Below, piece after piece: positions 3,663 through 40,218 of a stretch of 58,919 bases of DNA. The number at the start of each line of letters is the position of its first letter. Position 1 is the stretch's first letter. Location: the IMG/VR virus record IMGVR_UViG_3300022871_000577, positions 1 to 58,919 of that record; one strand, given 5' to 3'. This DNA is from a virus. Made by a program: the position numbers and the translations under genes. The notes under the pieces were generated by a model that saw only the letters and a program-made list of their open reading frames with translations, was not told where the DNA came from and made no database searches.

Positions 3663-5189
3663 ATGAATTTAGGTAAAAAATGCAATGGTTTTTTAAAGAC
3701 CGCTATTCGTTCAGTAGACGAGGCAGGTCTGAAAATTACTCATACCATTAATACTAAAGCATTAGATAGATATTACACTTCTGTTCTACCTCAAGGTGCA
3801 GATGTTAAGCACTTTTTAAATAATGCAGTTGTATTATGGTCTCATAATATGGATGAAGCAACTCCTAAAATTCCTATCGGAAGATGTATTGATTTGGATA
3901 TTAGAGAAGATGAGATTATAGCAACTACTGAATTTAATAAGAATGACCCTTTAGCAGTAAAAGTTTTTAACGCTTACAAGGACGGTTTCTTACATGCTTG
4001 GTCAATAGGTTTTATGCCTATTAAGTATAAAGAGGTAACGCTTGAGAATAGAGAAGAGCTTAATTCTGAATATAAGTTAAATATTTCTCTTGAACAATTA
4101 GAAGAAGCCGGTATGGACGGTGCTTATGTTGTTCATAAATGGGAATTACGTGAATATTCTGCTGTTCCAGTTCCGGGCAATCCCGAAGCTTTAAGTGCTG
4201 ATAAAGTTGATTTCTTTAAAAGAGAGCTAGTTACAAGAGGTTTAGTAAAAGAATCTGATGTAGATACTATCGAGATTAAAAAAGCAAAAGGCAAAAAGGA
4301 AGAAAAAGATGAATATTCTTGTGAATGTCTAGATTGTGGCGAAGAAGTAAAATCTAAAGAACATTGCAAAGATATTAAATGTCCTAAATGTGGGGGTGAA
4401 ATGCGAAGAAAAGACAGAACCGGCACAGGCAAAGATGCTGAAGTAGAAGTTAAAGATGTCGAAGTAAAAACAAGAGATGCTGAAGAAGTATCTAAAGAAG
4501 TTAAGGCCGAGGAAGTTAAAGGCGAAGAGACTGTAGCAGAAAAGGTCGAAGTAAAAGAAGAAGTAAAGCCTGAAGAAGTCAAAGAAGAAAAGGTTGAAGA
4601 AGTCAAAGCTGAAGAAGTTAAGACAGAAGAGCCTAAGGCTGAAGAGGTTAAGACTGAAGTTAAAGTGAAAGAGGTAAAAGAAGAAGAAGCTAAAGCTGAA
4701 GTCAAAGAAGAAAATAAAGCTGAAGAGCCTAAGGCTGAAGAGGTTAAGACTGAAGTTAAAGTGAAAGAGGTAAAAGAAGAAGAAGCTAAAGCTGAAGTCA
4801 AAGAAGAAAATAAAGCTGAAGAGCCTAAAACTGAAGTAAAAGAAGAAAAGGAAAATACTGCCTCAACAACAGAAGATAAAACTGAAAAGTCTGAAGTGGT
4901 CGAAAAGTCTGAAGTAAAGGTAGAGGAAAAAGCTGAAGAAGTAAAAGAAGAGGAAACACCAGCTAATTTCGCTTCCATTATCAAAGACCTTCTTCAGAAG
5001 AATAAAGAATTATTGGATAGACTTGAAGTAAACGAAGCAAAACTAGAGGAGTTAGCAAGTGTTAATTCTAAAGTGGATGTTATTCAGAAAAGTCTTGATG
5101 TTGACAACATAGATAAGGTCAGAGAAGCTTCTCAGAAGAGAAAAAGTGGTAACTCTGATACGTGGTTCAGTACGTTACTAAGACAATAA
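3663..5189 (+). CDS. HK97-type prohead protease fused to a Lys/Glu/Val-rich, scaffold-like region
   Basis: 508 residues with GGGAGGA upstream. Residues 1-190 match the phage prohead protease family (S78/U35): catalytic His in VVLWSHN (about 57-62), Ser in HAWSIGF (about 110-116), and the usual EYSAVPVPGNPEA segment. Residues about 218-245 add a four-Cys ribbon (CECLDCG, CPKCGG). Residues about 258-432 are low-complexity KEE/VKAEE repeats, and the end (about 440-490) is a coiled coil (LLQKNKELLDRLEVNEAKLEEL), as expected of a scaffold (delta) domain. Protease and scaffold are thus in one chain immediately before the capsid gene. The zinc ribbon and the very long acidic/basic linker are unusual. 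Confidence 0.88.
   Translation: MNLGKKCNGFLKTAIRSVDEAGLKITHTINTKALDRYYTSVLPQGADVKHFLNNAVVLWSHNMDEATPKIPIGRCIDLDIREDEIIATTEFNKNDPLAVKVFNAYKDGFLHAWSIGFMPIKYKEVTLENREELNSEYKLNISLEQLEEAGMDGAYVVHKWELREYSAVPVPGNPEALSADKVDFFKRELVTRGLVKESDVDTIEIKKAKGKKEEKDEYSCECLDCGEEVKSKEHCKDIKCPKCGGEMRRKDRTGTGKDAEVEVKDVEVKTRDAEEVSKEVKAEEVKGEETVAEKVEVKEEVKPEEVKEEKVEEVKAEEVKTEEPKAEEVKTEVKVKEVKEEEAKAEVKEENKAEEPKAEEVKTEVKVKEVKEEEAKAEVKEENKAEEPKTEVKEEKENTASTTEDKTEKSEVVEKSEVKVEEKAEEVKEEETPANFASIIKDLLQKNKELLDRLEVNEAKLEELASVNSKVDVIQKSLDVDNIDKVREASQKRKSGNSDTWFSTLLRQ
4631..4822 (+). repeat. Two identical 96-bp tandem copies in the protease-scaffold linker
   Basis: Units 4631-4726 and 4727-4822 look identical base for base (32 residues each, beginning PKAEEVKTEVKVKEV). 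Perfect identity, synonymous sites included, implies a very recent in-frame duplication. The linker around it consists of older diverged KAEEVK units. Confidence 0.85.
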
Positions 5190-5219: not shown

Positions 5220-6158
5220 ATGGATTTTGTAATTCCAGCAGGAGATTCACTTAATTTACCAAAAGAATTAATTGATAAAATCGTAGAAGATGCAGTAGAG
5301 AAGTCGCTAGTTTTAAAAATGGTTTCTTCAAGAGACCAATTCATCGAGATTGTGAATGAAGGAACTGTTCCAGTTATTGGTGAAGCTGATTTAGACAAGG
5401 TTTTTAGACTTGATGCTACTTCAGATATTACTACACTAGCTGAGATGGACTTTGATATTAAACCGGCTGATTTAGACCCGGTTGAAATGGGTACTTATAT
5501 TTATTTAAAGAAGAAACAAATCGCTCAGTATCCAGAGCTAAAGCTAGACCAGTTATTTAGAAATAAGATTTCTGGTGCTATTGCTAGAACCGCTGACAAA
5601 ATTGCTCTTAAAGGCGACGATGAAACGGTTGGAGCAACTGACCCTCTTTCCATCTGTGATGGTATTGAGAAGTTAGCTTTAACAGCAAATTGTGCTAACG
5701 CACCGGTTGAATACACTACTTCAAATTCTCAAAATGTTGTGGATGCTGTTGCAGAAGCACAAGAAGATTTGGGAGTTTACGGTAACCAAGAAGCTATTGA
5801 AGATTTAGTATTGTTTGCATCTTCAAACTTTGTAACGGCCGCTAAAAAGTCTGCGGATAAGAACGTAATCGGATTTGACATCGAAGATGTTCCTGCACTA
5901 GGCTTGAAGAAAGTGGTTCATGTTCAAGGTATCCCTGTTATTCGTAGATTGAATATTACAGGTGAGAAAGCTATTCTTGCTAACATGAAGGGTGCTTTCG
6001 CTGGTTATTATGGTAACATCGAAGTTGATGTTGAGCATAAAGCTGGTCGCAGAGCTGACTTACTTGTTGTAACATACTGGTTTGACTTTGTTTGGGCATA
6101 TGTTAATGGCTCAAGTAAATCAGAAGGTTTGATTACTATTCAAAAAGCAAGTTCGTAA
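5220..6158 (+). CDS. Major capsid protein, HK97 fold
   Basis: 312 residues, directly after the protease, with AAGGAG upstream. The layout is typical of HK97-like capsid proteins: helical N-terminus (PKELIDKIVEDAVEKSLVLK), beta segments (GTVPVIGEADLDKVFRLDAT), the long helix region (LDQLFRNKISGAIARTADKI) with ALKGDD after it, and a C-terminal P/A-domain stretch ending in QKASS. There is no long delta domain of its own, consistent with scaffold function in the preceding gene. It is followed by a strong terminator, as expected for a highly expressed gene. Confidence 0.85.
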   Translation: MDFVIPAGDSLNLPKELIDKIVEDAVEKSLVLKMVSSRDQFIEIVNEGTVPVIGEADLDKVFRLDATSDITTLAEMDFDIKPADLDPVEMGTYIYLKKKQIAQYPELKLDQLFRNKISGAIARTADKIALKGDDETVGATDPLSICDGIEKLALTANCANAPVEYTTSNSQNVVDAVAEAQEDLGVYGNQEAIEDLVLFASSNFVTAAKKSADKNVIGFDIEDVPALGLKKVVHVQGIPVIRRLNITGEKAILANMKGAFAGYYGNIEVDVEHKAGRRADLLVVTYWFDFVWAYVNGSSKSEGLITIQKASS

Positions 6159-6177
6159 AGAGTAATTAGTAAATTCG

Positions 6178-6222
6178 ATAGTAGAGTTATGGGGGGTAAT
6201 TTCTGTAGCTCTACTATTTTTT
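6178..6222 (+). terminator. Rho-independent terminator after the capsid gene
   Basis: A perfect 9-bp stem, ATAGTAGAG (6178-6186) with CTCTACTAT (6209-6217), has a 22-nt loop and runs into six T residues. It sits 20 nt after the capsid stop codon and separates head genes from the endonuclease/glycan block. Confidence 0.75.
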
Positions 6223-6274
6223 AAATTGAAATTTTTAAAATAAATTGTAATCTTAAATTGATAGGATTAAAAAA

Positions 6275-6925
6275 ATGCCTTGTAGACTTACCTCAGAAAA
6301 AAAAGCAGTTCTTACCAAAAATTTTCTTTTTCAAGAATATTACTGTCATAAAAAATCTCAGCAAACTATAGCTGATGAAAATCAGATTTCTAGAGAAACT
6401 ATACGAAGATATTTTAAAAATTTTGAAATGTCTAGTCGCTCTCACAAAGAATGTACTGAACTAAGAAATCTATCAGGTAAAAATAATCCAATGTATAGTC
6501 ATGGAAAGTGTATTAAAGCGTCTAAGTGTAAATTTTGTGGTAAACAATTAGTGGCCTTTTCTGCAACTATGTGTAAATCTTGTGCTAATTCAGGCAAAAG
6601 AAATCCTAGATATGGTAAAAGAGCATCTCACGGTAAATGGACACAGTATAAAGATGTTAATTTTAGAAGTTCTTGGGAAGCTAAATTTGCAAAATATTTA
6701 GATAAAGAAAATATCAAGTGGTTTTACGAGTACACAACATTTTATGGTGAGAATTATTCTTATACACCAGATTTTTATTTATCTGAAACAAATGAATATG
6801 TCGAGATAAAAGGATGGTGGCGAGAAAAGAGCTTAGAGAAAGTTCAAAAGTTTATTATAGATTTTCCCAATGTTATATTATCTGTTAGAGGTAAAGATAC
6901 CTTAAAAAGATTAGGAGTTCTATAA
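6275..6925 (+). CDS. Free-standing homing endonuclease, PD-(D/E)XK type with NUMOD3-like motifs
   Basis: 216 residues. A helix-turn-helix-like N-terminus (QQTIADENQISRETIRRYFK) is followed by two NUMOD3-like DNA-binding motifs (GKNNPMYSHGK about 67-77, GKRNPRYGK about 107-115) flanking a four-Cys finger (CKFCG, CKSC). The C-terminal 90 residues carry the nuclease signature: RSSWE, YTPDFYL, YVEIKG. This domain is clearly homologous to the C-terminal half of the N-terminal terminase ORF at 45130-46296, down to the ending LGVL-stop. Its TAA overlaps the ATG of the glycosyltransferase gene (TAATG). Role: double-strand cleavage that spreads itself and linked DNA. Confidence 0.8.
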   Translation: MPCRLTSEKKAVLTKNFLFQEYYCHKKSQQTIADENQISRETIRRYFKNFEMSSRSHKECTELRNLSGKNNPMYSHGKCIKASKCKFCGKQLVAFSATMCKSCANSGKRNPRYGKRASHGKWTQYKDVNFRSSWEAKFAKYLDKENIKWFYEYTTFYGENYSYTPDFYLSETNEYVEIKGWWREKSLEKVQKFIIDFPNVILSVRGKDTLKRLGVL

Positions 6926-9297
6926 TGTCATCTGCTATTAGATTAATTTCTGAAGAAATAGATACCTACCTTCCAAACTCAGACAATACAGCTTTAATTA
7001 AAAGAAGAAACTATATTTTACCTTCTCCAAGGGGTAAATTTTTTATTGTTGCTTTTATTAGTCATAAAAGAGATGGTGCAAATATTTCTCCTGTTATACA
7101 TAAAGCAATCAAGCATGATATTGGTGTATTATATGTTTGTGATAAACTTCCTTCGAGTCCTATTATACACCCAAATGTTCATTATATTGAAGTTCCTGAT
7201 ATATGGTTTATTCACACATTATTTATGAATCCCTTAATGTTTTCTGCATCATACGCTTCAAGGTCAAAGAGACAGTTATCTAAAGCATTTCACGGCTTTA
7301 CGAAGTATCAAATTCCAATTATATCCACATCTTCTGATGTTCCAAAAATAGTAGAGAATTACGAAAAAAATAAGAATAATATTTTAGTAGATATTACCGG
7401 TGGGGTAGGTGACCATTTACTTACAATTCCTTCTCTTAAAACACTCGCAGTAAAGCACGACGTATACGTTTTATGTGAAAAGCATAGAGAACCCTGTTTT
7501 TATAATTTATCTTATATTAAAGGCTTTTACAATAAACGTCAAGATGTAGATATTTCTAAGTTCAGAAAGGTAATTCATCTTCATTTCGGACAATTATTAA
7601 ATGATTATAGATTAGACCTAAATAAACAAAATAGAATTTATTCCGTAGCAGAAGTATGTGGCTTATCTAAAGAAGAGTTAGTTATAAACAGACCAGAAAT
7701 TATTTTGACAGATATGGAACGAAAGACAGCTTCTCTAAAATATGACTCCTATAGGAATAAGGTATTCTTAGGTTATGATAGTGCAAGAGTTGATTCTAAA
7801 ATTCCCTCAGACTTAACACAAAGATTAATAGATGATTTAAAAAGAAAAAGTTGCTCGGTTTTTACAGCCTCAGTTAGAAGAAAAAAATTTCAAAACTGTA
7901 CTGATTTGAGCAGAGACATTTCGTTACGAGAATTATTTGCTTTAATTTCTGTAATGGATTGTGTATATACTATAGATACGTCTTTTTTACATATAGCGGC
8001 CGCTTTTGATAAACAGATTTTTTGTATGCTAAATTATTTTAAACCCGAGTGGAGATGCGGAACCTATATTAATTGTAAAACCTATACACCTAATGTTTCT
8101 TGTTTTCCTTGTGTTGCTTTTCAATTTGTAGAACATGAGAATAGAAAGTGTCATACTAAGTCATGTTATTATTTTCAAGATATAGATTTAATTTTAAAAG
8201 ATATTAAAGAGTATCTAAAAAATAAACCAAAGAGGATAGAAAATATTCAGATTGTTGATACCTCTTATATTCCAGATACAAAAAAGGATATTTCATTAAT
8301 GGATTTACCGGGTAAAATTGTTTCTAGCAGAGAGAACGATAAATTAAGAATAGGTGCTTTTTGGATGGGCGGTGTTGGTGATACCGTAATGCTAGGATAT
8401 TTATGTAGAGCAATACATAGAAAATATCCAAATAGTTATATAGATGCTTACGTTAGAGATAAGACACAGGCTCAATTATTAGTATTTGACTATCCTAATA
8501 TCAGAGGAATTAGCTCTAATTTAGGCTGGGGTGCTACTGTTGGTAAGCATAAACACGATTATGATATTATTTACGAGTTTAGACATTATCCATATGTCTG
8601 GAATAAATCTAATCCTAAATTAAATAGACCTTTTGATAAATCTAAGTATGATAATTGGCAATTAGCCTCGGAAGATATTATCAATAATTGGAAGTCAGAA
8701 GTATTTCGTTACTATGCAAAACAGACTGGGTTAAGCCTGAATAAATCAGATTTAATAATTCCACTTGCTAAAATTAATGAAGATATTTCTTACGGTTATT
8801 TAAAAAAATATAAGTTACCTAAAAAATATATTACTATACATGCAGGCTGTGATAAAGGTGTTGGCATTATGAAGCTTTGGAACAGAAAAAAATGGCAAGA
8901 ATTGATAGTTTTATTACAAGAGAAAGATATTGAAGTTATTCAAGTAGGAACATCTAGTGAGAAAGCGTTTGATAATATACAAAAAGTAGGCGTAGATAAT
9001 CTTACTGATTTAGCTTATATCTTAAAGCTGAGTACACTTCACGTCGATAATGAAGGCGGTCTGGTTCATTTAGCTCATGCAGTAGAAACGAAGTCTGTAG
9101 TATTATTTGGGGCAACCAGTCCTACACTTTATGGTTATCCTGATAATATTAATTTATACAAAGATGTCTGTTCTACATGCTGGTGGAAAGTTAATAAGTG
9201 GAGTAGTAATTGTATGAAAGGTAATAAAAGTTGTGTTAATTTAGATAAATTGTCTGTTTTAGAAGTTTTAAATGCTATAGAGAGAAATTATGAATAG
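6925..9297 (+). CDS. Double-domain GT9 (heptosyltransferase-type) glycosyltransferase
   Basis: 790 residues. Two GT9-like units are visible: the first starts near residue 158 (DITGGVGDHLLTIPSLK) and ends around ACKTYTP; the second starts near 478 (WMGGVGDTVMLGYL) and contains the donor-site region with HAGC (about 647), then LHVDNEGGLVHLAHA and VVLFGATSP (about 705-730). About 130 N-terminal residues precede them. GT9 enzymes transfer heptose or related sugars from ADP-activated donors in Gram-negative LPS core synthesis; the acceptor here is unknown. The end overlaps the SDR gene by 8 nt, so the block is translationally coupled. Confidence 0.8.
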   Translation: MSSAIRLISEEIDTYLPNSDNTALIKRRNYILPSPRGKFFIVAFISHKRDGANISPVIHKAIKHDIGVLYVCDKLPSSPIIHPNVHYIEVPDIWFIHTLFMNPLMFSASYASRSKRQLSKAFHGFTKYQIPIISTSSDVPKIVENYEKNKNNILVDITGGVGDHLLTIPSLKTLAVKHDVYVLCEKHREPCFYNLSYIKGFYNKRQDVDISKFRKVIHLHFGQLLNDYRLDLNKQNRIYSVAEVCGLSKEELVINRPEIILTDMERKTASLKYDSYRNKVFLGYDSARVDSKIPSDLTQRLIDDLKRKSCSVFTASVRRKKFQNCTDLSRDISLRELFALISVMDCVYTIDTSFLHIAAAFDKQIFCMLNYFKPEWRCGTYINCKTYTPNVSCFPCVAFQFVEHENRKCHTKSCYYFQDIDLILKDIKEYLKNKPKRIENIQIVDTSYIPDTKKDISLMDLPGKIVSSRENDKLRIGAFWMGGVGDTVMLGYLCRAIHRKYPNSYIDAYVRDKTQAQLLVFDYPNIRGISSNLGWGATVGKHKHDYDIIYEFRHYPYVWNKSNPKLNRPFDKSKYDNWQLASEDIINNWKSEVFRYYAKQTGLSLNKSDLIIPLAKINEDISYGYLKKYKLPKKYITIHAGCDKGVGIMKLWNRKKWQELIVLLQEKDIEVIQVGTSSEKAFDNIQKVGVDNLTDLAYILKLSTLHVDNEGGLVHLAHAVETKSVVLFGATSPTLYGYPDNINLYKDVCSTCWWKVNKWSSNCMKGNKSCVNLDKLSVLEVLNAIERNYE

Positions 9298-9880
9298 AAT
9301 TATTATTATAACTGGAGGTAAAGGAAATTTAGGACAATATTTAACCGATAAGTTAGGTATAGCCGATACGATTATAAGTTTATCGCATAGTAGTTGTGAT
9401 ATTACTTCAACAAAGTCTATTAAAAAGACTGTAAAGAATATTATTAAAAAATATAAAAAAATAGATGTATTAATTAATAATGCAGGTATAATGAAATTTG
9501 ATAGTGTAGAGAACATCAAAGAAGAGGATATTTATAAAACATTTAATGTGAATACTATTGGAACCATTAATATGACTAGAGAAGTTTTAAAACATATGCA
9601 AAAAGAAAATAAAGGCGTAATAATTAATGTTTCTTCTATTCGTGGAATAACGGGTGCACCGACGAAATCTATTTACTCGGCCTCCAAGTTCGCATTACAG
9701 GGATTTTCAGATTCTATACGATATGAATTAAAAGATACGAGCATTAAAGTTACGAATATTTGTGGAGGAAAGTATCAGGACTCTCTTACTTATAAGGATA
9801 TTTATAATACAATTAAATATATCTTTACTCTTTCTAGCAGAACTTGTTTAAGGAATATTATATTAGGTGGTCAACTATAA
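9290..9880 (+). CDS. Short-chain dehydrogenase/reductase (SDR)
   Basis: 196 residues with a full set of classical SDR motifs: the TGGKGNLG cofactor loop, DVLINNAG, NVSSIRG with the catalytic Ser, and YSASK (Tyr/Lys, about residue 127-131). Shorter than usual (about 240), it ends soon after the active site and may be C-terminally abbreviated. NAD(P)-dependent oxidation or reduction of a sugar or polyol is likely from context; the substrate is not predictable. Confidence 0.82.
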   Translation: MNRIIIITGGKGNLGQYLTDKLGIADTIISLSHSSCDITSTKSIKKTVKNIIKKYKKIDVLINNAGIMKFDSVENIKEEDIYKTFNVNTIGTINMTREVLKHMQKENKGVIINVSSIRGITGAPTKSIYSASKFALQGFSDSIRYELKDTSIKVTNICGGKYQDSLTYKDIYNTIKYIFTLSSRTCLRNIILGGQL

Positions 9881-10368
9881 TGAAAAGTATATTAATTAAT
9901 CCAAGAAAAGATTTAGTATTCGACTTAAAGGCAAAAGAATCTTGTAAGTCTTGTAAAAGATACTCACAGAAAGCGACCTGTCCGCCTTATGTAGATAATA
10001 TGCAGTATTACAAAAAATTATTGAAGTCTTATAAATACGGCGTTATTTATTATGAGCAGTTTAAATCAACAAAAGACCAATGGGAAGAGATAGGTAAAAA
10101 ATCTTCTTTAGCTATGCACATGCACTTACTGAAAATTAGAGATGATTTATTTTTAAGAGGGCATCATTTCGTAATTGCATTTGGTGCAGGCTCATGTAAG
10201 CTTTGTAAAGAGTGTTCATTTCCTTGCAGAAATCCTTCAAAGTCCTTAATTCCTATGGAGGGCACAGGCTTAAATGTTGTAGAGCTTATGAAAAGAAAAA
10301 AGGTAGAGATTAAGTTTCCTGTTACAGAGAGTATCTATCGAGTAGGGATAATTTTATATGATTTATAA
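9880..10368 (+). CDS. DUF2284-like cysteine-rich metal-binding protein
   Basis: 162 residues from ATG 9880, which overlaps the SDR stop (TAATG). An upstream TTG in frame is less likely. Cysteine motifs CKSCKRY, CPPY, CKLCKECSFPC and the PSKSLIPMEGTGLNV segment match the DUF2284 family of predicted metal or Fe-S binding proteins, whose function is unknown. Finding it in a glycan block is odd; it may be a passenger or serve redox chemistry with the neighbouring SDR (inference). Confidence 0.75.
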   Translation: MKSILINPRKDLVFDLKAKESCKSCKRYSQKATCPPYVDNMQYYKKLLKSYKYGVIYYEQFKSTKDQWEEIGKKSSLAMHMHLLKIRDDLFLRGHHFVIAFGAGSCKLCKECSFPCRNPSKSLIPMEGTGLNVVELMKRKKVEIKFPVTESIYRVGIILYDL

Positions 10369-10813
10369 TAAAAGAATCATTTATACGGCAGGAACATTTG
10401 ACTTATTTAATGTAGGTCATCTAGAGATATTTAAGAAGTCTAGAAAACTAGGTGATATATTAATTGTCGGTGTAAGCACAGATAAGCTTGTTAAGAGCTA
10501 CAAGATGACAGCACCAGTAATATCTTATGCTGATAGAGTAAGAATTATAGAGTCTTGTAAGTACGTTGATAAGGTAATCAAGCAGACTAAGTTATTGGCT
10601 ATTAAGACTTTAAAGAAATATAAAGTAGACTGCATTACTATCGGGTCTGATTGGAAAAATAAACACGTTGAAGGTCTTGAGTGGATGAAAAAGAATGGTG
10701 AAGTTATTTATTTACCCTATACAAAACGAGTTAGCTCGTCTGAAATTAAGAAAAAAATAATAGAAAATTCTTACGATATTATTAAATCAGCTTTTGAGAG
10801 AAAAATAAAATGA
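10358..10813 (+). CDS. Cytidylyltransferase-like nucleotidyltransferase (TagD/RfaE2 type), copy 1
   Basis: 151 residues. HIGH-family motifs are clear: TAGTFDLFNVGHLEIFKK at the N-terminus, DRVRIIESCKYVD mid-protein, and VSSSEIKKKI in place of the usual ISST motif. Such enzymes activate a phosphorylated alcohol or sugar with CTP or ATP (glycerol-3-phosphate, or heptose-1-phosphate in RfaE2/HldE). Its start overlaps the previous gene by 11 nt and its end overlaps the LicD-like gene (ATGA). Together with the HldE-type kinase at 35.9 kb it could form a two-gene ADP-heptose-like route (inference). Confidence 0.78.
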   Translation: MIYNKRIIYTAGTFDLFNVGHLEIFKKSRKLGDILIVGVSTDKLVKSYKMTAPVISYADRVRIIESCKYVDKVIKQTKLLAIKTLKKYKVDCITIGSDWKNKHVEGLEWMKKNGEVIYLPYTKRVSSSEIKKKIIENSYDIIKSAFERKIK

Positions 10814-11439
10814 CAAAGAAAATTAAATGGAAAGATAGAGCAGAGACAGACAAGACAGAGTATATAAATCAAGCTGATATTTTCTGTAAATGGTTTACTG
10901 ATTTATTCAATGTACCAATCTATCTAATTTATGGAACTTTGCTGGGGTGTGTTCGAGAGCATAATTTTATAGATAATGATGATGATGTCGATTTAGCTTA
11001 TTTGAGTAAACACACTAAATTTGAAGATGTATTCAAAGAAATGCTAGAAATTAATCGTGTATGTGATAACTTGAGACTAATAAAAACTTTTGGTCAAGGT
11101 AGCGGTCTTCCCAGATATTGTGGTCATTCACATATATTTTCAAAGAATAAGAAGTGTATTTTTGATGTATGGACTTCGTGGATAGATGAGAAAGGTAAGT
11201 ATAACTTTTATACTATGGGAAAAAATATTAATCAAGACGTTTTATTGCCATTAAAATTAAATACGCTTAGAGACAAAACATTTTTAGTTCCAAATAAATC
11301 AAAGAAGCTACTTTCTTATTTATACACAGATGAATGGAAAACACCTTTATCTAGAAAATCTTATCAATACAGAAAGTTTCATTGGAAACCGCTTGTTACT
11401 ATTTATAACGATATGTTGAAAAAGAAAGACTTAGCGTGA
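10810..11439 (+). CDS. LicD-family phosphotransferase
   Basis: 209 residues. The LicD signature is visible: IYGTLLGCVREHNFI followed by the acidic metal-binding cluster DNDDDVDLAY (about residues 55-62), then CIFDVWTSW. LicD proteins transfer phosphocholine or similar groups from CDP-activated donors to glycans. The adjacent cytidylyltransferases could supply such a donor. ATGA overlap upstream and GTGA overlap downstream place it firmly in the operon. Confidence 0.8.
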   Translation: MTKKIKWKDRAETDKTEYINQADIFCKWFTDLFNVPIYLIYGTLLGCVREHNFIDNDDDVDLAYLSKHTKFEDVFKEMLEINRVCDNLRLIKTFGQGSGLPRYCGHSHIFSKNKKCIFDVWTSWIDEKGKYNFYTMGKNINQDVLLPLKLNTLRDKTFLVPNKSKKLLSYLYTDEWKTPLSRKSYQYRKFHWKPLVTIYNDMLKKKDLA

Positions 11440-12143
11440 GCTTACTTAATAAAAAAATACTTTTTGCAGGAACAACATCTTCAGGCTCATCAGCCTTATT
11501 TGATTATTTTAGATGCTTTAAAAATACATATAGTCTTGAAACAGAGATGTCAAAGACTTGGAGAAGGAATATTTATTCTGAATGGAAAAGTCAAAATTTC
11601 TCAGACACTAACGCAGAACTATACAGAGTAATATTAAATGCTAGAATTGAGATAGAGTTCAATAAAAGATTTAAAAATATATCTCAAGACTCAATACTAT
11701 TACTCAATAATATAGTAACCTGTCTGACTTTACAGGGTATTAGTTTATTAGATAATACTATGGTTGTTTGCGTTCTAAGAGACCCACGCTCTACTTGGCT
11801 AAAAAGACGCTTTTTGTGTATGAAAAAGAATAAATCTATTAAAGTAGAGCAGTTTATTAAAGAGTATAGAGGTCAACGAGAACGCTTTTCTGAGAATTTA
11901 AAGAATTTAAAGTGCAAGTATAAAATTTATATCGTTAATTTTGAGGATTTTATATTAAGCGATGAGTATAAAGAGACTGTAGTAAATCATCTAGGTTTCA
12001 ACATGAAAGATTATCCAGCTAATCCAGAGTATGCGCCTTATTGTAAAGAGAGGTCAATTCTACAACATCATTTTTATGAAAATCAAGATGAAATTGAGCT
12101 AATTAAAAAAGAATTAAAGAGGTATTGTCATGCGAAAGTATAA
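11436..12143 (+). CDS. Sulfotransferase-like P-loop protein
   Basis: 235 residues from a GTG start that overlaps the LicD stop codon. The N-terminal FAGTTSSGSSALFDYF resembles the 5'-phosphosulfate-binding loop of sulfotransferases, and VVCVLRDPRSTWLKRR resembles the 3'-phosphate-binding motif (RDPRS). The rest is diverged. If active it would move sulfate from PAPS to a sugar hydroxyl. A non-catalytic P-loop protein cannot be excluded. Confidence 0.65.
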   Translation: MSLLNKKILFAGTTSSGSSALFDYFRCFKNTYSLETEMSKTWRRNIYSEWKSQNFSDTNAELYRVILNARIEIEFNKRFKNISQDSILLLNNIVTCLTLQGISLLDNTMVVCVLRDPRSTWLKRRFLCMKKNKSIKVEQFIKEYRGQRERFSENLKNLKCKYKIYIVNFEDFILSDEYKETVVNHLGFNMKDYPANPEYAPYCKERSILQHHFYENQDEIELIKKELKRYCHAKV

Positions 12144-12531
12144 GGTCGGAATTACATTTGGTGCATATGAGCTTTTTCATATTGGACATTTGAATTTAAT
12201 TAAGCAGGCAAAAAGATTATGTGATAAGTTGATTGTATGTGTTAGTGATGATGAATATATTAAAGTAAAAAAAGGGCATGATTCTAGAATCATTTTAAAA
12301 CATAGAAAAGAAATAATTTTATCTTTAAGACAGGTAGATATTGTAGCTATTCAAAGTTTAGATTTTGGAAAGAAGAAGTTAGTTAAACAGTACAGTCCAG
12401 ACGTAATTTTTGTAGGTGGTGATTGGACACCAGAAACATTTACAGGCGAAGGCTTAGGTATTCCAGTAGTTTATCTTGATAGAACTGAAGACATTAGTTC
12501 AACCTTGTTAAGACAAAAGTATTTTAACTAG
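12130..12531 (+). CDS. Cytidylyltransferase-like nucleotidyltransferase (TagD type), copy 2
   Basis: 133 residues, near the length of glycerol-3-phosphate cytidylyltransferase. Motifs: TFGAYELFHIGHLNLIKQ, VCVSDDEYIK, IFVGGDWTPE, and EDISSTLLRQKY, the standard ISST(x)LR ending. It conserves the catalytic motifs better than copy 1. Likely product: a CDP-alcohol for LicD-type transfer (inference). Overlaps the sulfotransferase-like gene by 14 nt. Confidence 0.78.
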   Translation: MRKYKVGITFGAYELFHIGHLNLIKQAKRLCDKLIVCVSDDEYIKVKKGHDSRIILKHRKEIILSLRQVDIVAIQSLDFGKKKLVKQYSPDVIFVGGDWTPETFTGEGLGIPVVYLDRTEDISSTLLRQKYFN

Positions 12532-12544
12532 AAAGAGTGAAATT

Positions 12545-13348
12545 ATGAAAGTATGTGTAATAGGTTTAGGCGAGATAGGTTGGGAAACATTTAAAGAGTT
12601 AGACAAAGATAATAGCATTGATTTATCTGGCGTAGAAATATCTGAAATTAGAATAGCTGAATTAAAAAAGATTACATCTAGAGATATTAAAAATACTATT
12701 CCTTCTCGCTGTGATATTTATATCTTATCTGTATATACTCCAAAGCAAATTAAAGATGTCATTTCAAAGATTGATTTATCATTGCGACCATTAATTGTAA
12801 TTGAGTCAACTATGTTACCGGGCGATACAGATATAATTTTAAAAGCTTACGAGAATATTGATTTAGTTTTATTTCCTCACAGATACAATCCTAACGATAA
12901 GGCTCATCATGTGTTTAATTTAAATAGAATAATGGGAGCAAATACAAAAGAAGCTTTAGATAGGGCTGTTCAGTTTTATGGCAAATACATGCCACTAGAT
13001 AAATTGAGTCTTGTTTCTCTGCAAATAGCTGAGTTATCAAAACCTTTAGAAAATGCTTATAGATTTATAGAGATTGCTATTGCTGAAGAAGTTAGAATGG
13101 AGTGCGAAAAACGAGGTATTGATTTTAAAGAACTAAGAGATTCTGTAAATACTAAATGGAATATTGACATGAAAGAAGCTAGAGATGGTATAGGATTAAA
13201 ATGTTTACCAAAAGATTGTAAATTTATTAATAAGTTTTTTAGAACTAATACATTATTTAAAACTGTAATAGACGTTGATAAAAAATACAGAGAATATTTA
13301 ACCAATAAAGGACAGGAGACCTCTGATTACAGAGAAGTAGATATTTAA
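12545..13348 (+). CDS. UDP-glucose/GDP-mannose dehydrogenase-like protein, shortened
   Basis: 267 residues; NAD-binding start KVCVIGLGEIGWETFKEL. The central part matches the NDP-sugar dehydrogenase core: VIESTMLPGDTDIIL, ELSKPLENAYRFIEIAIAEE, and GIGLKCLPKDC, where the Cys aligns with the catalytic Cys of the usual GG-C-PKD motif. The C-terminal UDP-binding domain of full enzymes (400+ residues) is missing. It may oxidise an NDP-sugar to a uronic acid, act on a different substrate, or be inactive. Confidence 0.72.
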   Translation: MKVCVIGLGEIGWETFKELDKDNSIDLSGVEISEIRIAELKKITSRDIKNTIPSRCDIYILSVYTPKQIKDVISKIDLSLRPLIVIESTMLPGDTDIILKAYENIDLVLFPHRYNPNDKAHHVFNLNRIMGANTKEALDRAVQFYGKYMPLDKLSLVSLQIAELSKPLENAYRFIEIAIAEEVRMECEKRGIDFKELRDSVNTKWNIDMKEARDGIGLKCLPKDCKFINKFFRTNTLFKTVIDVDKKYREYLTNKGQETSDYREVDI

Positions 13349-13395
13349 TATGAATTTAAAAGATAATTTGTCTAAGTCAAGCGAGGAATTTTATT

Positions 13396-14250
13396 ATGAA
13401 TCTTAAAGAAAAGAGCATATTATGGATAACAGACCATACAACTAAAGATGTGCCGGCAGGTGGTGCCGAGATTACTGACTCGCATATTATTCGTGCAGGA
13501 AAAGAGATAGGTTACGATATAACGGTATGCCAATCTAAGTTTTTGCGTTCTGATACATTAAAAAGTAGTGATTTGGTAGTTTTTAGTAATTGTTACGATG
13601 TGTATAAATCGGTTAGAGATAAGATTATGACTACTAAAGATTACATTGTATATTCACATGATTCTGGTAGATGGAAGAGTGTCTTAAAAGAAAATCCTCT
13701 TATGATGAAAGAGTCTTTAATTAATATATTTTTATCGCCTCTGCACAGAGATTGTTTTAAGAAAGAGCTATATCATAGAAAAGACTCTTTATTAGTTTGT
13801 CCTCATTTAGATATTAATTTCTTTGATAGAGGCGAAGATAGAGTGAACAGAATTATGTTTGCAGGTAATGTTCACGAAGGAAAAGGCGTATTGAGCATTA
13901 TTGAATTTGCTAAGAGTAATCCTGATATTAATATAGATTTCTATTGTCATCGAGCCTCATCACATTTGAAGATACGTTTAAAGGCTTTAAAGAATTGTCA
14001 TTTAAAAGGCCATATTCCACAAAATAAAATGACAGATTACTATAATAAATATAAATATTTTATACATATTCCTGAGTGTAGTGAAGCATTTGGGAGAGCT
14101 GTCGGGGAAGCGATACTCTGTGGCTGTAAAGTCATAGCTAACAATAGGATAGGTGCATTATCATACGATTGGGACTACGAGACATTGAGACAAAATACGC
14201 TATACGCACATTATTACTTCTGGAATGAGCTTCAGAAGCGATTAAAATAG
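13396..14250 (+). CDS. GT4-like (GT-B) glycosyltransferase
   Basis: 284 residues. The N-terminal ITDHTTKDVPAGGAEITD resembles the acceptor-side loop of GT4 enzymes. The C-terminal half has a donor domain: IMFAGNVHEGKGVLSIIEFA, then CSEAFGRAVGEAILCGCKV with the E-x7-E motif (about residues 227-243). No signal peptide or membrane helix, so cytoplasmic. Start chosen at ATG 13396 behind GCGAGGAA. It is the last glycan gene before the right-hand endonuclease. Confidence 0.82.
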   Translation: MNLKEKSILWITDHTTKDVPAGGAEITDSHIIRAGKEIGYDITVCQSKFLRSDTLKSSDLVVFSNCYDVYKSVRDKIMTTKDYIVYSHDSGRWKSVLKENPLMMKESLINIFLSPLHRDCFKKELYHRKDSLLVCPHLDINFFDRGEDRVNRIMFAGNVHEGKGVLSIIEFAKSNPDINIDFYCHRASSHLKIRLKALKNCHLKGHIPQNKMTDYYNKYKYFIHIPECSEAFGRAVGEAILCGCKVIANNRIGALSYDWDYETLRQNTLYAHYYFWNELQKRLK

Positions 14251-14269
14251 TCTTTTTAAATAGACTTAA

Positions 14270-14290
14270 CTGTATTTAATAGTAGAGAGT
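14270..14290 (+). promoter_or_regulatory. Candidate late promoter element (copy 2)
   Basis: CTGTATTTAAT followed by AGTAGAGAGT, matching 18 of 21 positions of the element at 3189-3210. It lies in the short gap between the glycan block and the right-hand endonuclease, and would drive that gene and the connector/tail genes. Functional reading is inference. Confidence 0.3.
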
Positions 14291-14311
14291 AAATTGAAAA
14301 GGAGTAAATTG

Positions 14312-14827
14312 ATGGAAAAACGCAATCTGTTAATCAGAGCAGAAAGTAATAGAAAAGGTGCCAACAATCCTAATTGGAAGTGCGGAATCTCGACCAATAA
14401 AACTTGTTCTGATTGTGGTAAACTCATCTCTAAGGCCGCTAAGAAATGTAGAAGCTGTTCTCGAACAGGTAAATCTTGGAGCTGGTCTGAAAACTCAAAG
14501 AAAAATATAAGAATGGAAAAGAATTCGCAATGGAAAGGCGGACGTTCTGTAACTGATAAAGGTTATGTAAGAATATATTTGCCTGAACATATTAATGCTA
14601 CAGGTAGAGGCTATGTTTATGAGCATAGATTGATTATGGAGAAGCATTTAGATAGATATTTAGATAGAAAAGAAATTGTTCATCATATAGATGGAAATAA
14701 ACAGAATAATAAATTAGAAAATTTAATGTTGTTTCCTAATCAAAAGGCACACTTTAATTTTTCTCATTTTAATAAGCAAACTTTTATCTGTAAATATTGC
14801 GGAAAAAATCAAAGGAGTACAAAATGA
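14312..14827 (+). CDS. HNH homing endonuclease with NUMOD3-like motif
   Basis: 171 residues from ATG 14312, 9 nt after AAAAGGAG (an upstream in-frame TTG lacks an SD). NUMOD3-like GANNPNWK, a four-Cys finger (CSDCG, CRSC), a second motif (EKNSQWKGGR), then an HNH_3-type core: GYVYEHRLIMEKHL, EIVHHIDGNKQNNKLENL. A final CKYCGK lies at the C-terminus. It marks the right edge of the glycan block and overlaps the next start by ATGA. Confidence 0.85.
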   Translation: MEKRNLLIRAESNRKGANNPNWKCGISTNKTCSDCGKLISKAAKKCRSCSRTGKSWSWSENSKKNIRMEKNSQWKGGRSVTDKGYVRIYLPEHINATGRGYVYEHRLIMEKHLDRYLDRKEIVHHIDGNKQNNKLENLMLFPNQKAHFNFSHFNKQTFICKYCGKNQRSTK

Positions 14828-15270
14828 AGGCTTTCATCTACGGTAATCATACATACGGAGACAAAATCATCCTTTCTTATTTGCAGAGTGCGTTAGAAAA
14901 CTGTGAATATTTAGGTGCAAAAGTTGATTTATCTCGAATCACGCCAGTAGAAGAAAATCTCATTATAATTTCAAATTCAAGTTTATTCCATATAGACCAA
15001 GATAAAATTCTAGGTTATATTAAGAAAGACTTATCTAAACCTTTAATGGTAGTTAGAAAATTAAAGACGTTTGGAACTGTTTTGTTTAAAGCAAATTTTG
15101 AAGTAGATAGGATTACTACAAATAAATCATATAATTTTGCAGGTATGCTTTATTTACCTAAAAAATATTTTGATATGTTAGAAGAGAAAACACGCACAAT
15201 CGCAGAAATATTTAGAACAGTAGATTACGCAGATTGGCGATTTTATATTGTAGATGGAAGGAAAAAATAA
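14824..15270 (+). CDS. Hypothetical protein between the glycan block and connector genes
   Basis: 148 residues from ATG 14824, with AAAGGAG 7 nt upstream inside the end of the endonuclease gene. It is beta-alpha in pattern (MKAFIYGNHTYGDKIILSYL; ENLIIISNSSLFHI) and ends NFAGMLYLPKKYFDML and YADWRFYIVDG. The last part loosely resembles sugar-nucleotide transferases, but no catalytic motif is certain. It may belong to the glycan block or to the virion module. Confidence 0.55.
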   Translation: MKAFIYGNHTYGDKIILSYLQSALENCEYLGAKVDLSRITPVEENLIIISNSSLFHIDQDKILGYIKKDLSKPLMVVRKLKTFGTVLFKANFEVDRITTNKSYNFAGMLYLPKKYFDMLEEKTRTIAEIFRTVDYADWRFYIVDGRKK

Positions 15271-15301: not shown

Positions 15302-15883
15302 ATGATTACCAAGGCAGGCGTAGCTATTGTCTTAGGCATAGAAACCGCAGATATTTCTGATTCTGTTTATGATTGGGCTGTAAAGCAGTTCTTCCTAGTT
15401 ACAGGTCTTAAATCTGCCGAAGAGACCAAGACACAAAGACGATTTGTAAATAGAGCTACTTTATACTTTAAATTAAATGCAAGAGACATTAAATCAATAG
15501 ATACTTTAAAAATAGATAATGACGAAAAAGATTTTACTTTATTCTCAGATTTAAAGTTCAATCCGGATTCTGGTTTAGTTTATTATACAGGAGGCTTTAG
15601 TGGTGGTCAGTTAGTTGAAATGACCTATACTGTAAATTCTTATACTGAGAAAGATATTCACGATTATCTAGTCTCTTTATTAGTTGCTAAATCTATGAGT
15701 ATGTTTACTCCGGATAAAATTCAACAAGTTAGTTCTATTAAAATAGGTAAATTTTCCAAAAAGTTTGGTTCTGCCGCCTCTAACTTAGAGAGTTATAATG
15801 AAGTTTTAGAGAGTGAGATTCAAAGAACTGTTTATTTAATTAACGATAATGATACAGATTTAGATTTAGGTCATATTATTTAA
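15302..15883 (+). CDS. Head-tail connector (gp6/adaptor-like) protein
   Basis: 193 residues behind AAGGAGGA. The position (first of connector, closure, gp10, terminator) and the helix-rich ends (DSVYDWAVKQFFLVTG; DIHDYLVSLLVAKSMSMF) around a beta insert (DLKFNPDSGLVYYTGG) fit a phage adaptor protein that binds the portal. The family is assigned mainly by order. Confidence 0.6.
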   Translation: MITKAGVAIVLGIETADISDSVYDWAVKQFFLVTGLKSAEETKTQRRFVNRATLYFKLNARDIKSIDTLKIDNDEKDFTLFSDLKFNPDSGLVYYTGGFSGGQLVEMTYTVNSYTEKDIHDYLVSLLVAKSMSMFTPDKIQQVSSIKIGKFSKKFGSAASNLESYNEVLESEIQRTVYLINDNDTDLDLGHII

Positions 15884-31445: not shown

Positions 31446-31784
31446 TCACTCCTTAGTTAGTTCATCTTGTTTTTGGCAGATTGCTTTGGCTAAGAACTTA
31501 CAATGTCTCTCTAAGATACCTCTTTCTCCCTCAAGACTGTCCCAATAATGGTCTGTCATTATCTCCTCTATCTCCTTGCAAGAGGGTAGGGAACTTACGC
31601 TGATAAAATCTTCCTGACATTTCTCTGTCCACTTCTCCCAATCATCACACGCATATCCCTCATTACAAATATCATCACCAGTATGAGAACACATTTCGTT
31701 TTTTGATTTCTTTAATTTTTCTATATAACAAATTAATCCAATAATAATCAGAACTTGTATAAATGGAATAATAGCTTCAATCAT
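31446..31784 (-). CDS. N-terminally anchored membrane protein, hypothetical
   Basis: 112 residues: one transmembrane helix (IIPFIQVLIIIGLICYI), then a Cys/acidic domain (CSHTGDDICNEGYACDDWEKW, LPSCKEIEEIM, LERHCKFLAKAI) and the LTKE ending. It overlaps the membrane protease gene by ATGA, so the two may act together at the membrane. Confidence 0.55.
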   Translation of the reverse strand: MIEAIIPFIQVLIIIGLICYIEKLKKSKNEMCSHTGDDICNEGYACDDWEKWTEKCQEDFISVSSLPSCKEIEEIMTDHYWDSLEGERGILERHCKFLAKAICQKQDELTKE

Positions 31785-32509
31785 TTTATCCTTCTTTCAT
31801 CTAACAAGTTCATCATCTTAGCCAGAATTGTAATATAAACTAAGTCTATTGATAATAATAGAATCATATTTACTGGTATTTTATTACCATACGCTGAGAT
31901 AAACCATACTGCAATAATCGCTACCTGAGCTATCATTAATGCCCAGAATGAGATACCAATTAAATACTTGTAAAATCTATCAGACATCTTTCTGCGTAAT
32001 GGAAATATCCAAAGATAACCGCCATCAAGTGCAGGTATTGGTAACATATTAAATACGAATAATGTACTATTTAGAAATGCTGTATAGAATAATATTATGT
32101 TAAAGTTCTCTACACGAACATAGCTAATAGCACCTGTAAAGAAATACGCACACATAGAATAATCTATATAAATACCTTTAAGAATAGAGCCATAGTGAAT
32201 TAGATAGCATACAAAAGCGATTGATAGATTCATCGCAACACCAGCCATTAAAATAATACATTGTTTCCAATAAGCTATATTCGTCAAACTATTCATTACA
32301 GTTAAAGACTCCTCTATCTCGCAGTAACCGCCTAATGGTAATAAAGATAATCTCCAGTCAATCTTACCTATCTTCTTGTGTAGTAGTACGGGACCGAAGC
32401 CTATCGAGAAAGCACTCACAGGAACCTTAAAGTAGAGTGATGCTAAAAGATGACTCAATTCGTGTAAGATTACTGAACCCAAAAGTATTGCAACATATAG
32501 TATCCACAT
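31781..32509 (-). CDS. M50 (site-2 type) membrane metalloprotease
   Basis: 242 residues, polytopic. Zinc motif HELSH near residue 16 inside the first hydrophobic segment, followed by GFGPVLLHKK and LPLGGYCEIEES, and the second metal site in LPIPALDGGYLW (LDG motif) near residue 165. Further helices follow. These are the hallmarks of S2P-like proteases, which cut substrates within the membrane; there is no PDZ domain. Such a protease is unusual in a phage. A target could be a host anti-sigma factor or membrane sensor (inference). Confidence 0.85.
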   Translation of the reverse strand: MWILYVAILLGSVILHELSHLLASLYFKVPVSAFSIGFGPVLLHKKIGKIDWRLSLLPLGGYCEIEESLTVMNSLTNIAYWKQCIILMAGVAMNLSIAFVCYLIHYGSILKGIYIDYSMCAYFFTGAISYVRVENFNIILFYTAFLNSTLFVFNMLPIPALDGGYLWIFPLRRKMSDRFYKYLIGISFWALMIAQVAIIAVWFISAYGNKIPVNMILLLSIDLVYITILAKMMNLLDERRIK

Positions 32510-34134: not shown

Positions 34135-34524
34135 TTATTTACTCTCTAGTTTATATGCAGGTTGTAATTTAATATTATCATCGTCATCTGTTAGAGAAAC
34201 TTCCATAATAATACTTTGATGAGATAATGACTTAAATTTATGAATTGTTAAAGGATTAATTCTGAATTTATCTCCTGCATCTAAAACAGTTCTTTTGTTC
34301 TCAGTTGTCTCAGTAGCGTATTCAAGTTCTACTGTTCCTTGTAATATAATAAATGTTTCATCTTTTCTTTCGTGATAGTGCCAGCTGGAAGAGAAACCTC
34401 TATTTAATATCAATAACTTATTGCAGTATAATTCGTTATTCTCTATCCAAAGTTCATATCCCCAGAGATGGTCGTATTTTTCTCCTTTAAATGTTGCTAT
34501 GAAAGAGTTTATTTGTTTGCTCAT
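34135..34524 (-). CDS. Cupin-domain protein
   Basis: 129 residues. Cupin motif 1 is present as SSWHYHERKDETFIILQG and motif 2 as DAGDKFRINPLTIHKF, giving the His/His/Glu metal site and second-motif His. Similar stand-alone cupins include sugar-phosphate isomerases and sugar-nucleotide epimerases or ketoisomerases, so a link with the phage glycan genes is possible. The substrate is not predictable. Confidence 0.72.
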   Translation of the reverse strand: MSKQINSFIATFKGEKYDHLWGYELWIENNELYCNKLLILNRGFSSSWHYHERKDETFIILQGTVELEYATETTENKRTVLDAGDKFRINPLTIHKFKSLSHQSIIMEVSLTDDDDNIKLQPAYKLESK

Positions 34525-35861: not shown

Positions 35862-36803
35862 CTACAAATGACTATTTAGTTCGTCTAAAGTACAGACATC
35901 TGCACCGCTTTTACACGCAACAATACCGGCAGTTTTATTAGCAAGATATGCACTTTTTTCTAAACTTAGACCGTTCGATAAACCTAAAGTGAATGTGGCG
36001 ATTAATGTATCACCGCAACCTGTTACATCAACAATTTCTTTTCTTTCTGCTTTTAAATGATTGCTAACAACATCATCTGCATAATATAAACCGTTCTCAC
36101 TTAATGTTATAAGCACATTATTAAACCTGAACATTATCAATAACTCTTTGGCGAGTTCAAAGGAATCTTTATAATCATATATTTTAGTTTTAAAGATATT
36201 CTCTAACTCCTTTAAATTAGGCGTAATAGAGGTATAATTAGAAAAACAAGTAATATCTCTTTTCTTTGTATCAACTGTAATAATCTTATCTTCTTTTAAA
36301 GCAAGTTCTCCTATAAATACTGCGAGTTCTTCATTAATCATACCCTTATTATAATCAGATACTATTATTGCATCAAAATATTTGACATGTCTAACTAAAT
36401 TTTCCTTTACCTCTTTTAATTTAAAATTATTAAAACAAATATGTTCTCTATCAACTCTCAGTAGATGCTGATTATCTGCTATGTATCTTGTCTTTTTTGT
36501 CGTGATAACCTTTTTATCTGCGATTAATAAATTTGTATTGATTTTATTGTCTTGTAATAACTCTGTAACCCGAGTACCTGCAATATCTTTGCCTATTTTT
36601 CCTATAATCCAAACATTAGAACCTAAAGCTGTTAGATTTTTAGCCACATTAGCACAACCACCTAACTTATATTCACCTGATTGTTTATTCAATATAGGAA
36701 CAGGCGCTTCTGGAGAGATGCGTGATACTGAGCCTCTAACATACTTGTCAAGCATTAAATCCCCTATGACAAGTATATTCTTTTTATTTAATTTATTTTT
36801 CAT
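35862..36803 (-). CDS. HldE/RfaE1-like sugar kinase (PfkB family)
   Basis: 313 residues, the length of the kinase half of HldE (D-glycero-beta-D-manno-heptose-7-phosphate kinase). Motifs: LVIGDLMLDKYVRGSVSRIS at the start, EAPVPIL, GGCANVAKNLTALG, VDTKKRD, TPNLKEL, and DVTGCGDTLIATFTLGL with the catalytic Asp (usual GAGD is GCGD here). This start is so like bacterial RfaE that a heptose- or related sugar-phosphate kinase is likely. The nucleotidyltransferase half is absent, but two such proteins are encoded at 10.4 and 12.1 kb. Confidence 0.85.
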   Translation of the reverse strand: MKNKLNKKNILVIGDLMLDKYVRGSVSRISPEAPVPILNKQSGEYKLGGCANVAKNLTALGSNVWIIGKIGKDIAGTRVTELLQDNKINTNLLIADKKVITTKKTRYIADNQHLLRVDREHICFNNFKLKEVKENLVRHVKYFDAIIVSDYNKGMINEELAVFIGELALKEDKIITVDTKKRDITCFSNYTSITPNLKELENIFKTKIYDYKDSFELAKELLIMFRFNNVLITLSENGLYYADDVVSNHLKAERKEIVDVTGCGDTLIATFTLGLSNGLSLEKSAYLANKTAGIVACKSGADVCTLDELNSHL

Positions 36804-39900: not shown

Positions 39901-40218
39901 CTCTACAGGAATACTGTATTTTCTAGCCAAAACTTTAACTGCCTCGAAAAAGCTTGAACCTTTTATTGATACATTATTCTTAATACCATAAACATCAAAT
40001 ATATCGAAAGAACGCCGTTCTACAAAACAATATATTAAGTGATTCTTAGAGTCAGGTAAAAAGGCCGCTGATAATTTAGTTTCATCGTTATGGTCATGCG
40101 CCTCGGAATGCGGACATTGAACTTTCGTACCATTAGTTCTACACCCTAACTCATTAAGATATTCAGGTAATTTAGATTTAATTAGCTCTTTAATCTTATC
40201 TAAATTTTTAATGTGCAT
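36985..40218 (-). CDS. DNA primase-helicase with LAGLIDADG intein
   Basis: 1077 residues including a 343-residue intein; extein about 734. N-terminal primase zinc finger (CRTNGTKVQCPHSEAHDHND), TOPRIM motifs (TLTIVEGPFDAIALHP; FLALDPDN), then a DnaB/gp4-type RecA domain: GIPSGFPLFDKRFGG, AGFPETGK broken by the intein and resumed as TTFLLNF, Walker B FVVVIDNLHDL, and a C-terminal FRFANNTLTE strand. It should prime and unwind DNA at the phage fork. Activity requires splicing, because the P-loop is interrupted. Confidence 0.9.
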   Translation of the reverse strand: MHIKNLDKIKELIKSKLPEYLNELGCRTNGTKVQCPHSEAHDHNDETKLSAAFLPDSKNHLIYCFVERRSFDIFDVYGIKNNVSIKGSSFFEAVKVLARKYSIPVEEEYEYSANEKALNRQRKFLENIHKLSIQKKNLQKGVPYYKQRNINKEKLQTWKIGCLSPNDITPELNKECKSLFDYRLLTVFHKEGLVIPILNENNQYSGLIIRMFNTEDNDPYIKICIKGSNLFNIERVRGHDTLTIVEGPFDAIALHPNQNVIGCLTNVINDANLEKIANIEFKKIFLALDPDNLYKGTARDGFLRTVVRMKNLDSEISIIKIPVIEGEAKPDPDEYMKTHTLDDFKDLPKLSALKYLIENYEKGLIKEKIIYDFIAGCPNLIRKEAYITECAESLKIGKRQLTKSIDDMSNSSTSFNMIQYVQEKDAYDELLEDFTELAWNKNFAGIPSGFPLFDKRFGGFEDTLYLLAGFPETGKCHTKGTKILMYDGSSKSVENLNIDDILMGENSNPVTIKSVCKGKEETFNIIPNKGESFGVNKSHILVLSYNQLNQKTKKREYLTLELSVNAYLKKSKCFRDRCKLIRKSVEFKKQYVKYDPYFIGLWLGNGTKNQPEITGKDIELESYFIQFAEENKLIYKKLNRENRCSKHTFTNKWKNRNNPLLNELRLCVRDNIKRVPNNYLINSKENRLQLLAGLLDSDGYYSKGMFSITCKESELKDDILFLTRSLGLGSTYRVKKVKYVYKEKNEIREYFLINIFGEINKIPTKLKRKHARIRVSNKNALKTGFSVEALGVDDYYGFTLDKESKGRYLLGDFTLTHNTTFLLNFVYKLAMNEDTLVAFYSLDDGAKRAILPRLMSITSGLTSKQVRQPDSETHDKWFNGMANLKKMKDNIIIKDGSHIRTLDDLDNYVKIHSTIAMERGKKFVVVIDNLHDLQASGKHLEATQNAQRVASYLKRLPQQINCPIISTAEVPKSSSAKPSGKDIKESIDLWYASRFVGGVYSNFHQVKNIQDSNLHWVDENGAYNPIMELFVSKNQTGDALHGSLFFKFRFANNTLTECNERETDILNDGGFLTFMND
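37765..38793 (-). other. Intein with LAGLIDADG endonuclease inside the helicase P-loop
   Basis: 1029 nt, 343 residues, from Cys1 (codon 38793-38791) to the terminal Asn (37767-37765); +1 residue is Thr. Block A is CHTKGTKILMYDGSSKSVEN, block B GVNKSHILVLS, LAGLIDADG copies FIGLWLGNGTK and LLAGLLDSDGYYSK, and the C-terminal splice block GDFTLTHN (penultimate His present). Removal restores GFPETGKTT. It looks splicing-competent, with both endonuclease motifs in place. Confidence 0.9.

Follow-up and report, generated by a model that had tools for sequence, protein, structure and literature searches.

The stretch of DNA analysed here, referred to as the window, covers positions 1-58,919 (58,919 nt) of IMG/VR virus record IMGVR_UViG_3300022871_000577, which derives from an uncultured phage, and it carries, between the major capsid protein (MCP) gene and a gene in the position of a connector, a block of nine glycan-related genes with an endonuclease gene at either edge. 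A first-pass annotation, made from the sequence alone, had listed these genes and a terminator, and all of them are present at the coordinates it gave, in agreement with the open reading frames (ORFs), the Pfam and PHROG matches and the predicted fold of the product of 11436-12143. Eight of the nine glycan ORFs have a Pfam match, six of them better than 1e-12, and the set is far beyond chance.

Gene content of the locus

The left neighbour of the locus is the MCP gene (5220-6158; + strand, like all features described in this section), which matches the PHROG major head protein at 3e-5 and whose product is 57-100% identical among relatives. The expected terminator follows at 6177-6218 as a strong, intrinsic-terminator-like hairpin of 19 pairs and a T-run, the longest stem of the region, at the boundary between the capsid gene and the block. 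Next comes a free-standing endonuclease gene that lies outside the glycan machinery (6275-6925), a 663-bp insert at the start codon of the following gene, with PHROG endonuclease or resolvase matches down to 3e-12 and the PD-(D/E)XK motif TPDFYL...EIKGW. The glycan genes proper open with the left anchor, a double GT9 glycosyltransferase of ADP-heptose type (6925-9297) in which two stretches of a single 790-aa protein match Glyco_transf_9 (1.8e-18), and which is WaaF-like by PDB sequence match. Two swapped modules found only in the window and in the related contigs L006 and L025 stand behind it, namely a short-chain dehydrogenase (SDR) that keeps the YxxxK motif (9290-9880; adh_short 2.7e-40) and a Cys-rich, predicted metal-binding DUF2284 protein (9844-10368; PF10050 4.3e-29).

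Both of the nucleotidyltransferases that had been described as HIGH-type match CTP_transf_like, but the description holds in full for only one of them. CTt1 (10358-10813; 8e-21) reads N-V-G-H in place of H-x-G-H and resembles enzymes of the CDP-alcohol type, with PDB matches to ethanolamine-P cytidylyltransferase (5e-24) and glycerol-3-P cytidylyltransferase (2e-19). CTt2 (12130-12531; 1e-14) has the HIGH motif and may be of ADP-heptose synthase or CDP-glycerol type, since rfaE_dom_II (7e-22, 77.8 bits) and g3p_cytidyltrns (6e-21, 74.9 bits) score nearly alike, both under cut-off, followed by TagD (2e-18). Between the two lie a LicD-like phosphotransferase gene (10810-11439; LicD 6e-7; motif GTLLGxxR ... 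DDDVD), which is shared by the window, L015, L006 and L025 and for which the PDB sequence search gave nothing useful, and the ORF at 11436-12143. The product of the latter matches nothing in Pfam, PHROG or the PDB sequence search; its AlphaFold model, built from eight relatives (predicted local distance difference test, pLDDT, 79.8), was placed by Foldseek with tyrosylprotein sulfotransferase 2 (TPST2; E 5.6e-5, probability 1.00, template-modelling (TM) score only about 0.5). With GTxxSGSSA and RDPR invariant among relatives, the protein is predicted to fold as a sulfotransferase having a binding loop for 3'-phosphoadenosine 5'-phosphosulfate and the RDPR motif.

The gene at 12545-13348, annotated before as an NDP-sugar dehydrogenase, does match UDPG_MGDP_dh (8e-13) and Cap5O (6e-13), with its catalytic Cys aligned to that of Cap5O, but it resembles UDP-sugar dehydrogenases (UGDH) in part only, the C-terminal, sugar-nucleotide domain of the family being absent. 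The right anchor is a GT4-like glycosyltransferase (13396-14250; Glycos_transf_1 1.5e-6), after which an HNH endonuclease gene (14312-14827; PHROG HNH 2.8e-27) forms a separate 492-bp insert, represented among relatives only by a fragment in L025. In each complete relative the locus ends with a conserved 148-aa protein (14824-15270); it could be aligned in nine loci and was found in the L028 record, and its weak RmlA/IspD-like fold (Foldseek TM about 0.45, pLDDT 67) is too weak for naming. The start codons of the HNH gene and of this following gene are probably ATG 14312 and ATG 14824. The connector to the right is present as a gene (15302-15883) that lacks a family match, so that its name is one of position. 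Base composition was considered as a sign of recent arrival and rejected, the 30.2% G+C of the block (32.1% overall) being within the range of other 8.5-kb windows.

Fixed position and exchanged interiors

Searches with the MCP gathered 16 related virus contigs, and a broader MCP profile added none to them. One of these (L003) stops just past the MCP gene, which leaves 15 of the 16 informative beyond it, and 11 complete loci from the MCP gene to 14824, the window included, could be compared. Among annotated phages, neither nucleotide nor protein searches turned up a useful relative, yielding only weak GT9 matches (28-30%) in Caulobacter jumbo phages; MCP and GT9 profile searches of genome contigs for a prophage or host gave no match, and no cultured relative was found.

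The position of the locus is fixed. The same GT9 gene follows the capsid gene in all 15 informative contigs, with the PD-(D/E)XK endonuclease gene intervening in L005 and L025, and the flanking head genes are present in every relative whose contig extends to them. Direct capsid-connector junctions, which had been predicted for some relatives, occur in none of the 15. The anchors are nearly constant among the 11 complete loci (GT9 in 11, GT4 in 10), while locus length ranges from 5.5 to 14.8 kb and the interior varies: nucleotidyltransferases occur in eight loci, sulfotransferase-like genes in eight, UGDH-like genes in five, LicD in four, and SDR and DUF2284 in three each, and 22 of 35 ORF families are confined to one locus.

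Close relatives display this replacement directly. The window and L015 are practically identical on the flanks (MCP 99.7% identical, synonymous divergence (dS) 0.01; connector-side gene at 15302, dS 0.017), whereas inside the locus dS reaches 0.17 in GT9, 0.65 in CTt2 and 1.23 in the sulfotransferase-like gene and is saturated in LicD; window 9306-10880 has no DNA counterpart in L015, which carries a different cytidylyltransferase, a short dehydrogenase and UPF0047 in place of SDR, DUF2284 and CTt1. Likewise, L016 and L017 share 98.4% DNA identity across 9.2 kb up to the N half of GT9 and 93.7% beyond the interior, and their interiors (4.2 kb vs 0.7 kb) are unrelated. Purifying selection acts on every shared gene tested, with dN/dS of 0.08-0.21 for the glycan genes. 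The first-pass annotation had counted against its own reading a block found in all relatives at the same place and with the same divergence as the head genes; the place is indeed the same throughout, but the divergence is not that of the head genes. The sequence comparison indicates that interiors are exchanged through the conserved edges, and we are highly confident that this is a modular, recombining locus at a fixed place.

A second variable region extends from the 148-aa gene to the connector, where large ORFs (L010 17404-19818, L011 17327-18775, L012 13394-17800) possibly encode virion decoration proteins.

Endonucleases at the edges

Both edge endonucleases are real, of the PD-(D/E)XK kind on the left and the HNH kind on the right as first annotated, and by domain and empty sites both are predicted to be free-standing homing endonucleases. 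The accompanying proposal that the two carry the whole block between phages as a mobile unit could draw in addition on L025, where both kinds occupy the corresponding positions (on the left a diverged PD-(D/E)XK copy, on the right what remains of an HNH gene), but it did not survive the comparison of relatives. No informative relative has an empty site for the block, whereas L015 and L006 have both endonuclease sites cleanly empty and retain the glycan genes. Between the window and L005, moreover, dS is 0.008 for the PD-(D/E)XK gene against 0.735 for MCP and 0.564 for the adjoining GT9, which argues that this gene moved alone. Interiors differ between L015 and the window and between L016 and L017, though L015, L016 and L017 are all without edge endonucleases. 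Judged from these sequences, the glycan locus is a repeated target of endonuclease elements and not their cargo.

Further nuclease-like sequences were seen within loci of this lineage. An in-frame intein with a LAGLIDADG-like domain lies inside the double GT9 of L017 (8997-12491) and is absent from the 98% identical L016, and HNH or zinc-finger nuclease-like sequence is joined in frame upstream of cytidylyltransferase genes in L016 (14287-15312, an HNH ahead of CTt2) and L025 (5876-7036).

Chemistry of the alternative interiors

The interiors encode distinct sets of enzymes at the same place, several of which strengthen the earlier suggestion that the locus could add charged groups. The interior shared by the window, L006 and L025 is polyol-phosphate-like (SDR, cytidylyltransferase, LicD), while that of L016 encodes a sulfation module, with an APS kinase (5.6e-59) and a classical sulfotransferase (2e-18). 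L018 encodes a CDP-glycerol glycerophosphotransferase-like protein (Glyphos_transf), a class III aminotransferase and a TylF-like protein, and methyltransferases occur in the interiors of L010-L012, L016 and L017. The 14.8-kb interior of L028 and L029 is phosphonate-like, with a phosphoenolpyruvate (PEP) mutase-like protein fused to a cytidylyltransferase, parts of a phosphonopyruvate decarboxylase and an iron-containing alcohol dehydrogenase (Fe-ADH), and it also holds amino-sugar genes (CapE-, RmlD-, UDP-GlcNAc-2-epimerase- and CapG-like). Since the best match of the L028 PEP mutase, TIGR02320, reaches 243 bits against an NCBIfam cut-off of 320, and since its motif reads EDNVYPKTNS where EDKxxxxxNS is expected, with N for K, phosphonate production is a lead and not a result. 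No precedent for phage phosphonate, sulfotransferase or ADP-heptose loci turned up in the literature searched, which took in few subscription papers. In L029, a sulfatase-like ORF (5976-7025) without a family match was also observed, for which the PDB sequence search gave nothing useful.

Supply of a heptose donor

Outside the block, on the - strand, the window encodes a PfkB kinase (35862-36803) that is HldA-like, i.e., similar to D-beta-D-heptose 7-phosphate kinase, its sole PDB match at 1e-10 being 4e84 (8.8e-43). Near it, on the same strand, lies a cupin (34135-34524; Cupin_2 2.7e-9, Lyx_isomer 2.4e-8), weakly similar to D-lyxose isomerase and tentatively a sugar isomerase. The records of L010, L011 and L018 also encode the heptose-7-phosphate kinase, and cupin-like ORFs near the kinase were also recognized by eye in L031 and L032. 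The kinase probably provides donor supply for the locus, and its resemblance to HldA, the heptosyltransferase type of the GT9 anchors and the scores of CTt2 together make it plausible that the GT9 enzymes may use ADP-heptose made with the assistance of the phage.

Proposed function and alternatives

We propose that in this lineage of tailed phages, virulent by appearance, the block is a modular glycan locus with a fixed site, in which the anchors (double GT9 on the left, GT4 on the right) would build a core, probably from ADP-heptose made partly by the phage, and the interior would add a charged or capping group to that core. For the window phage the probable group is an alcohol that SDR and cytidylyltransferase would make in CDP-activated form and LicD would transfer, together with sulfate. 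Homologous recombination via the conserved edges would swap the interior, so that the glycans of nearly identical phages would differ. The acceptor would most likely be a virion protein, the capsid first, since the genes lie within the head-gene cluster. Expression would presumably be late, and the phage might benefit by evading decoys or predators or by a change in adsorption. That a charged glycan based on heptose is assembled on a virion protein appears to us moderately probable, a virion target being favoured by the head-cluster position, by six records in which no tyrosine integrase was found and, by analogy, by the mycobacteriophages discussed below. We offer as tentative, and short of probable, the more specific idea of a capsule-like, serotype-switching coat, in which a locus fixed beside the capsid gene, its anchor transferases constant and its phosphoryl-polyol, sulfate (with its own APS kinase), phosphonate and methyl modules exchangeable, would provide virions with heptose-based charged glycans and make near-identical phages differ in surface chemistry.

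Several points weigh against a heptose-based glycan on the virion. The records come from uncultured phages and are possibly incomplete. Neither L025 nor L028 has the heptose kinase in its record, and heptose may thus not be universal in the lineage; a GmhA-type isomerase (SIS_2) was not found in six records by a search whose positive control worked, although the host could provide this enzyme; and CTt2 is equally near to CDP-glycerol enzymes. The terminator at 6177-6218 stands between the capsid gene and the block. Bacterial LicD and many GT9 enzymes act on cell-surface glycans, so the enzyme families by themselves would fit a host-surface target equally well, and the sequence does not discriminate between a virion and a host-glycan acceptor.

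The main rival explanation is that the block remodels a surface glycan of the host, the heptose of the lipopolysaccharide (LPS) core or a capsule, whereby superinfection would be blocked or released virions kept off debris. GT9 enzymes are LPS-core heptosyltransferases, bacterial surface loci typically encode LicD, UGDH, CapE/CapG-like and CDP-alcohol enzymes, and temperate phages alter host serotype (cited in PMC12619734). However, the genes lie within the head-gene cluster in every relative, a late-cluster position that fits the virion better than superinfection exclusion, no tyrosine integrase accompanies them in the six records, and the block proteins scanned had no Pfam match to a flippase, polymerase or exporter (Wzx, Wzy, ABC), all of which makes this explanation possible but doubtful.

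An intracellular or lipid product that aids host metabolism, with no glycan coat, would accommodate DUF2284, UPF0047 and the short dehydrogenase, which are without a defined glycan role, but the anchors are glycosyltransferases, and a fixed metabolic need is unsuited to a locus whose interior chemistry changes while its anchors stay; we regard such auxiliary metabolism as improbable. Hypermodification of phage DNA by the glycosyltransferases is very unlikely, as the genes are grouped with head and not replication genes and we know of no sulfotransferase, LicD or phosphonate modules in DNA modification. Virus glycosyltransferases do put diverse glycans on DNA (Pyle 2024, cited in PMC12619734), but no thymidylate synthase or hydroxymethylase family was found in six records by a search whose positive control worked; in the corresponding search for TET/JBP families the control did not work. 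Carriage of the whole block by its two flanking endonucleases is, given the empty sites described above, hardly credible.

Other features of the window

The prohead protease gene (4400-4970) contains a long, repetitive Glu/Lys/Val-rich linker that differs in length among relatives. A 1077-aa ORF (36985-40218) combines primase, terminase-like (PHROG) and DnaB-like helicase matches and possibly contains an insertion such as an intein. Other genes encode an MgtC-like protein (55969-56385), a peptide deformylase (56828-57292), an M16 peptidase (51429-52586) and an M50 peptidase (31781-32509).

Comparison with known systems

The cultured phages in which virion glycosylation is known are few, and they have one or a few glycosyltransferases. 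Phage glycosyltransferases glycosylate the virions of mycobacteriophages Che8, Corndog and Myrna (Freeman 2023, via PMC12363180 and PMC12619734), tailed dsDNA phages in which capsid and tail tube are described as carrying the glycan. The window lineage likewise encodes its own glycosyltransferases, but the mycobacteriophages have only one or few such genes, located near the genome 3' end in the related F1 phage Maravista (PMC11256854), whereas the present lineage, for which a glycan is predicted, has a capsid-side locus of 5.5-14.8 kb that encodes enzymes for donors and for charged groups and has its interiors swapped. The edge endonucleases resemble other free-standing homing endonucleases of phages in being small intergenic genes whose sites are cleanly empty in relatives, with far less divergence in the PD-(D/E)XK copy than in its neighbours; they differ in standing at the edges of a locus that they do not carry, and their cleavage is predicted. 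Bacterial phosphonoglycan (PepM) loci (Acker 2022, PMC8931226) are paralleled by L028, where PEP-mutase-like, phosphonopyruvate-decarboxylase-like, Fe-ADH and cytidylyltransferase genes stand among glycosyltransferases, here in a phage, beside the capsid gene and with the divergent mutase described above. The locus of this lineage may also place phages among the organisms known to produce sulfated and phosphonate glycans.

In overall design the locus resembles bacterial capsule and O-antigen loci, which also have constant edges, an interior swapped between close relatives, and UGDH, LicD, CapE/CapG-like and CDP-alcohol enzymes, although in the present lineage these genes lie in phages beside the capsid gene and no Wzx, Wzy or ABC exporter is seen. 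If the proposed function is correct, this lineage-wide swappable locus would turn the phage surface into a polymorphic trait that bears comparison with bacterial serotypes, and would raise the question of the force that selects for it, be it decoy binding, grazers or adsorption.

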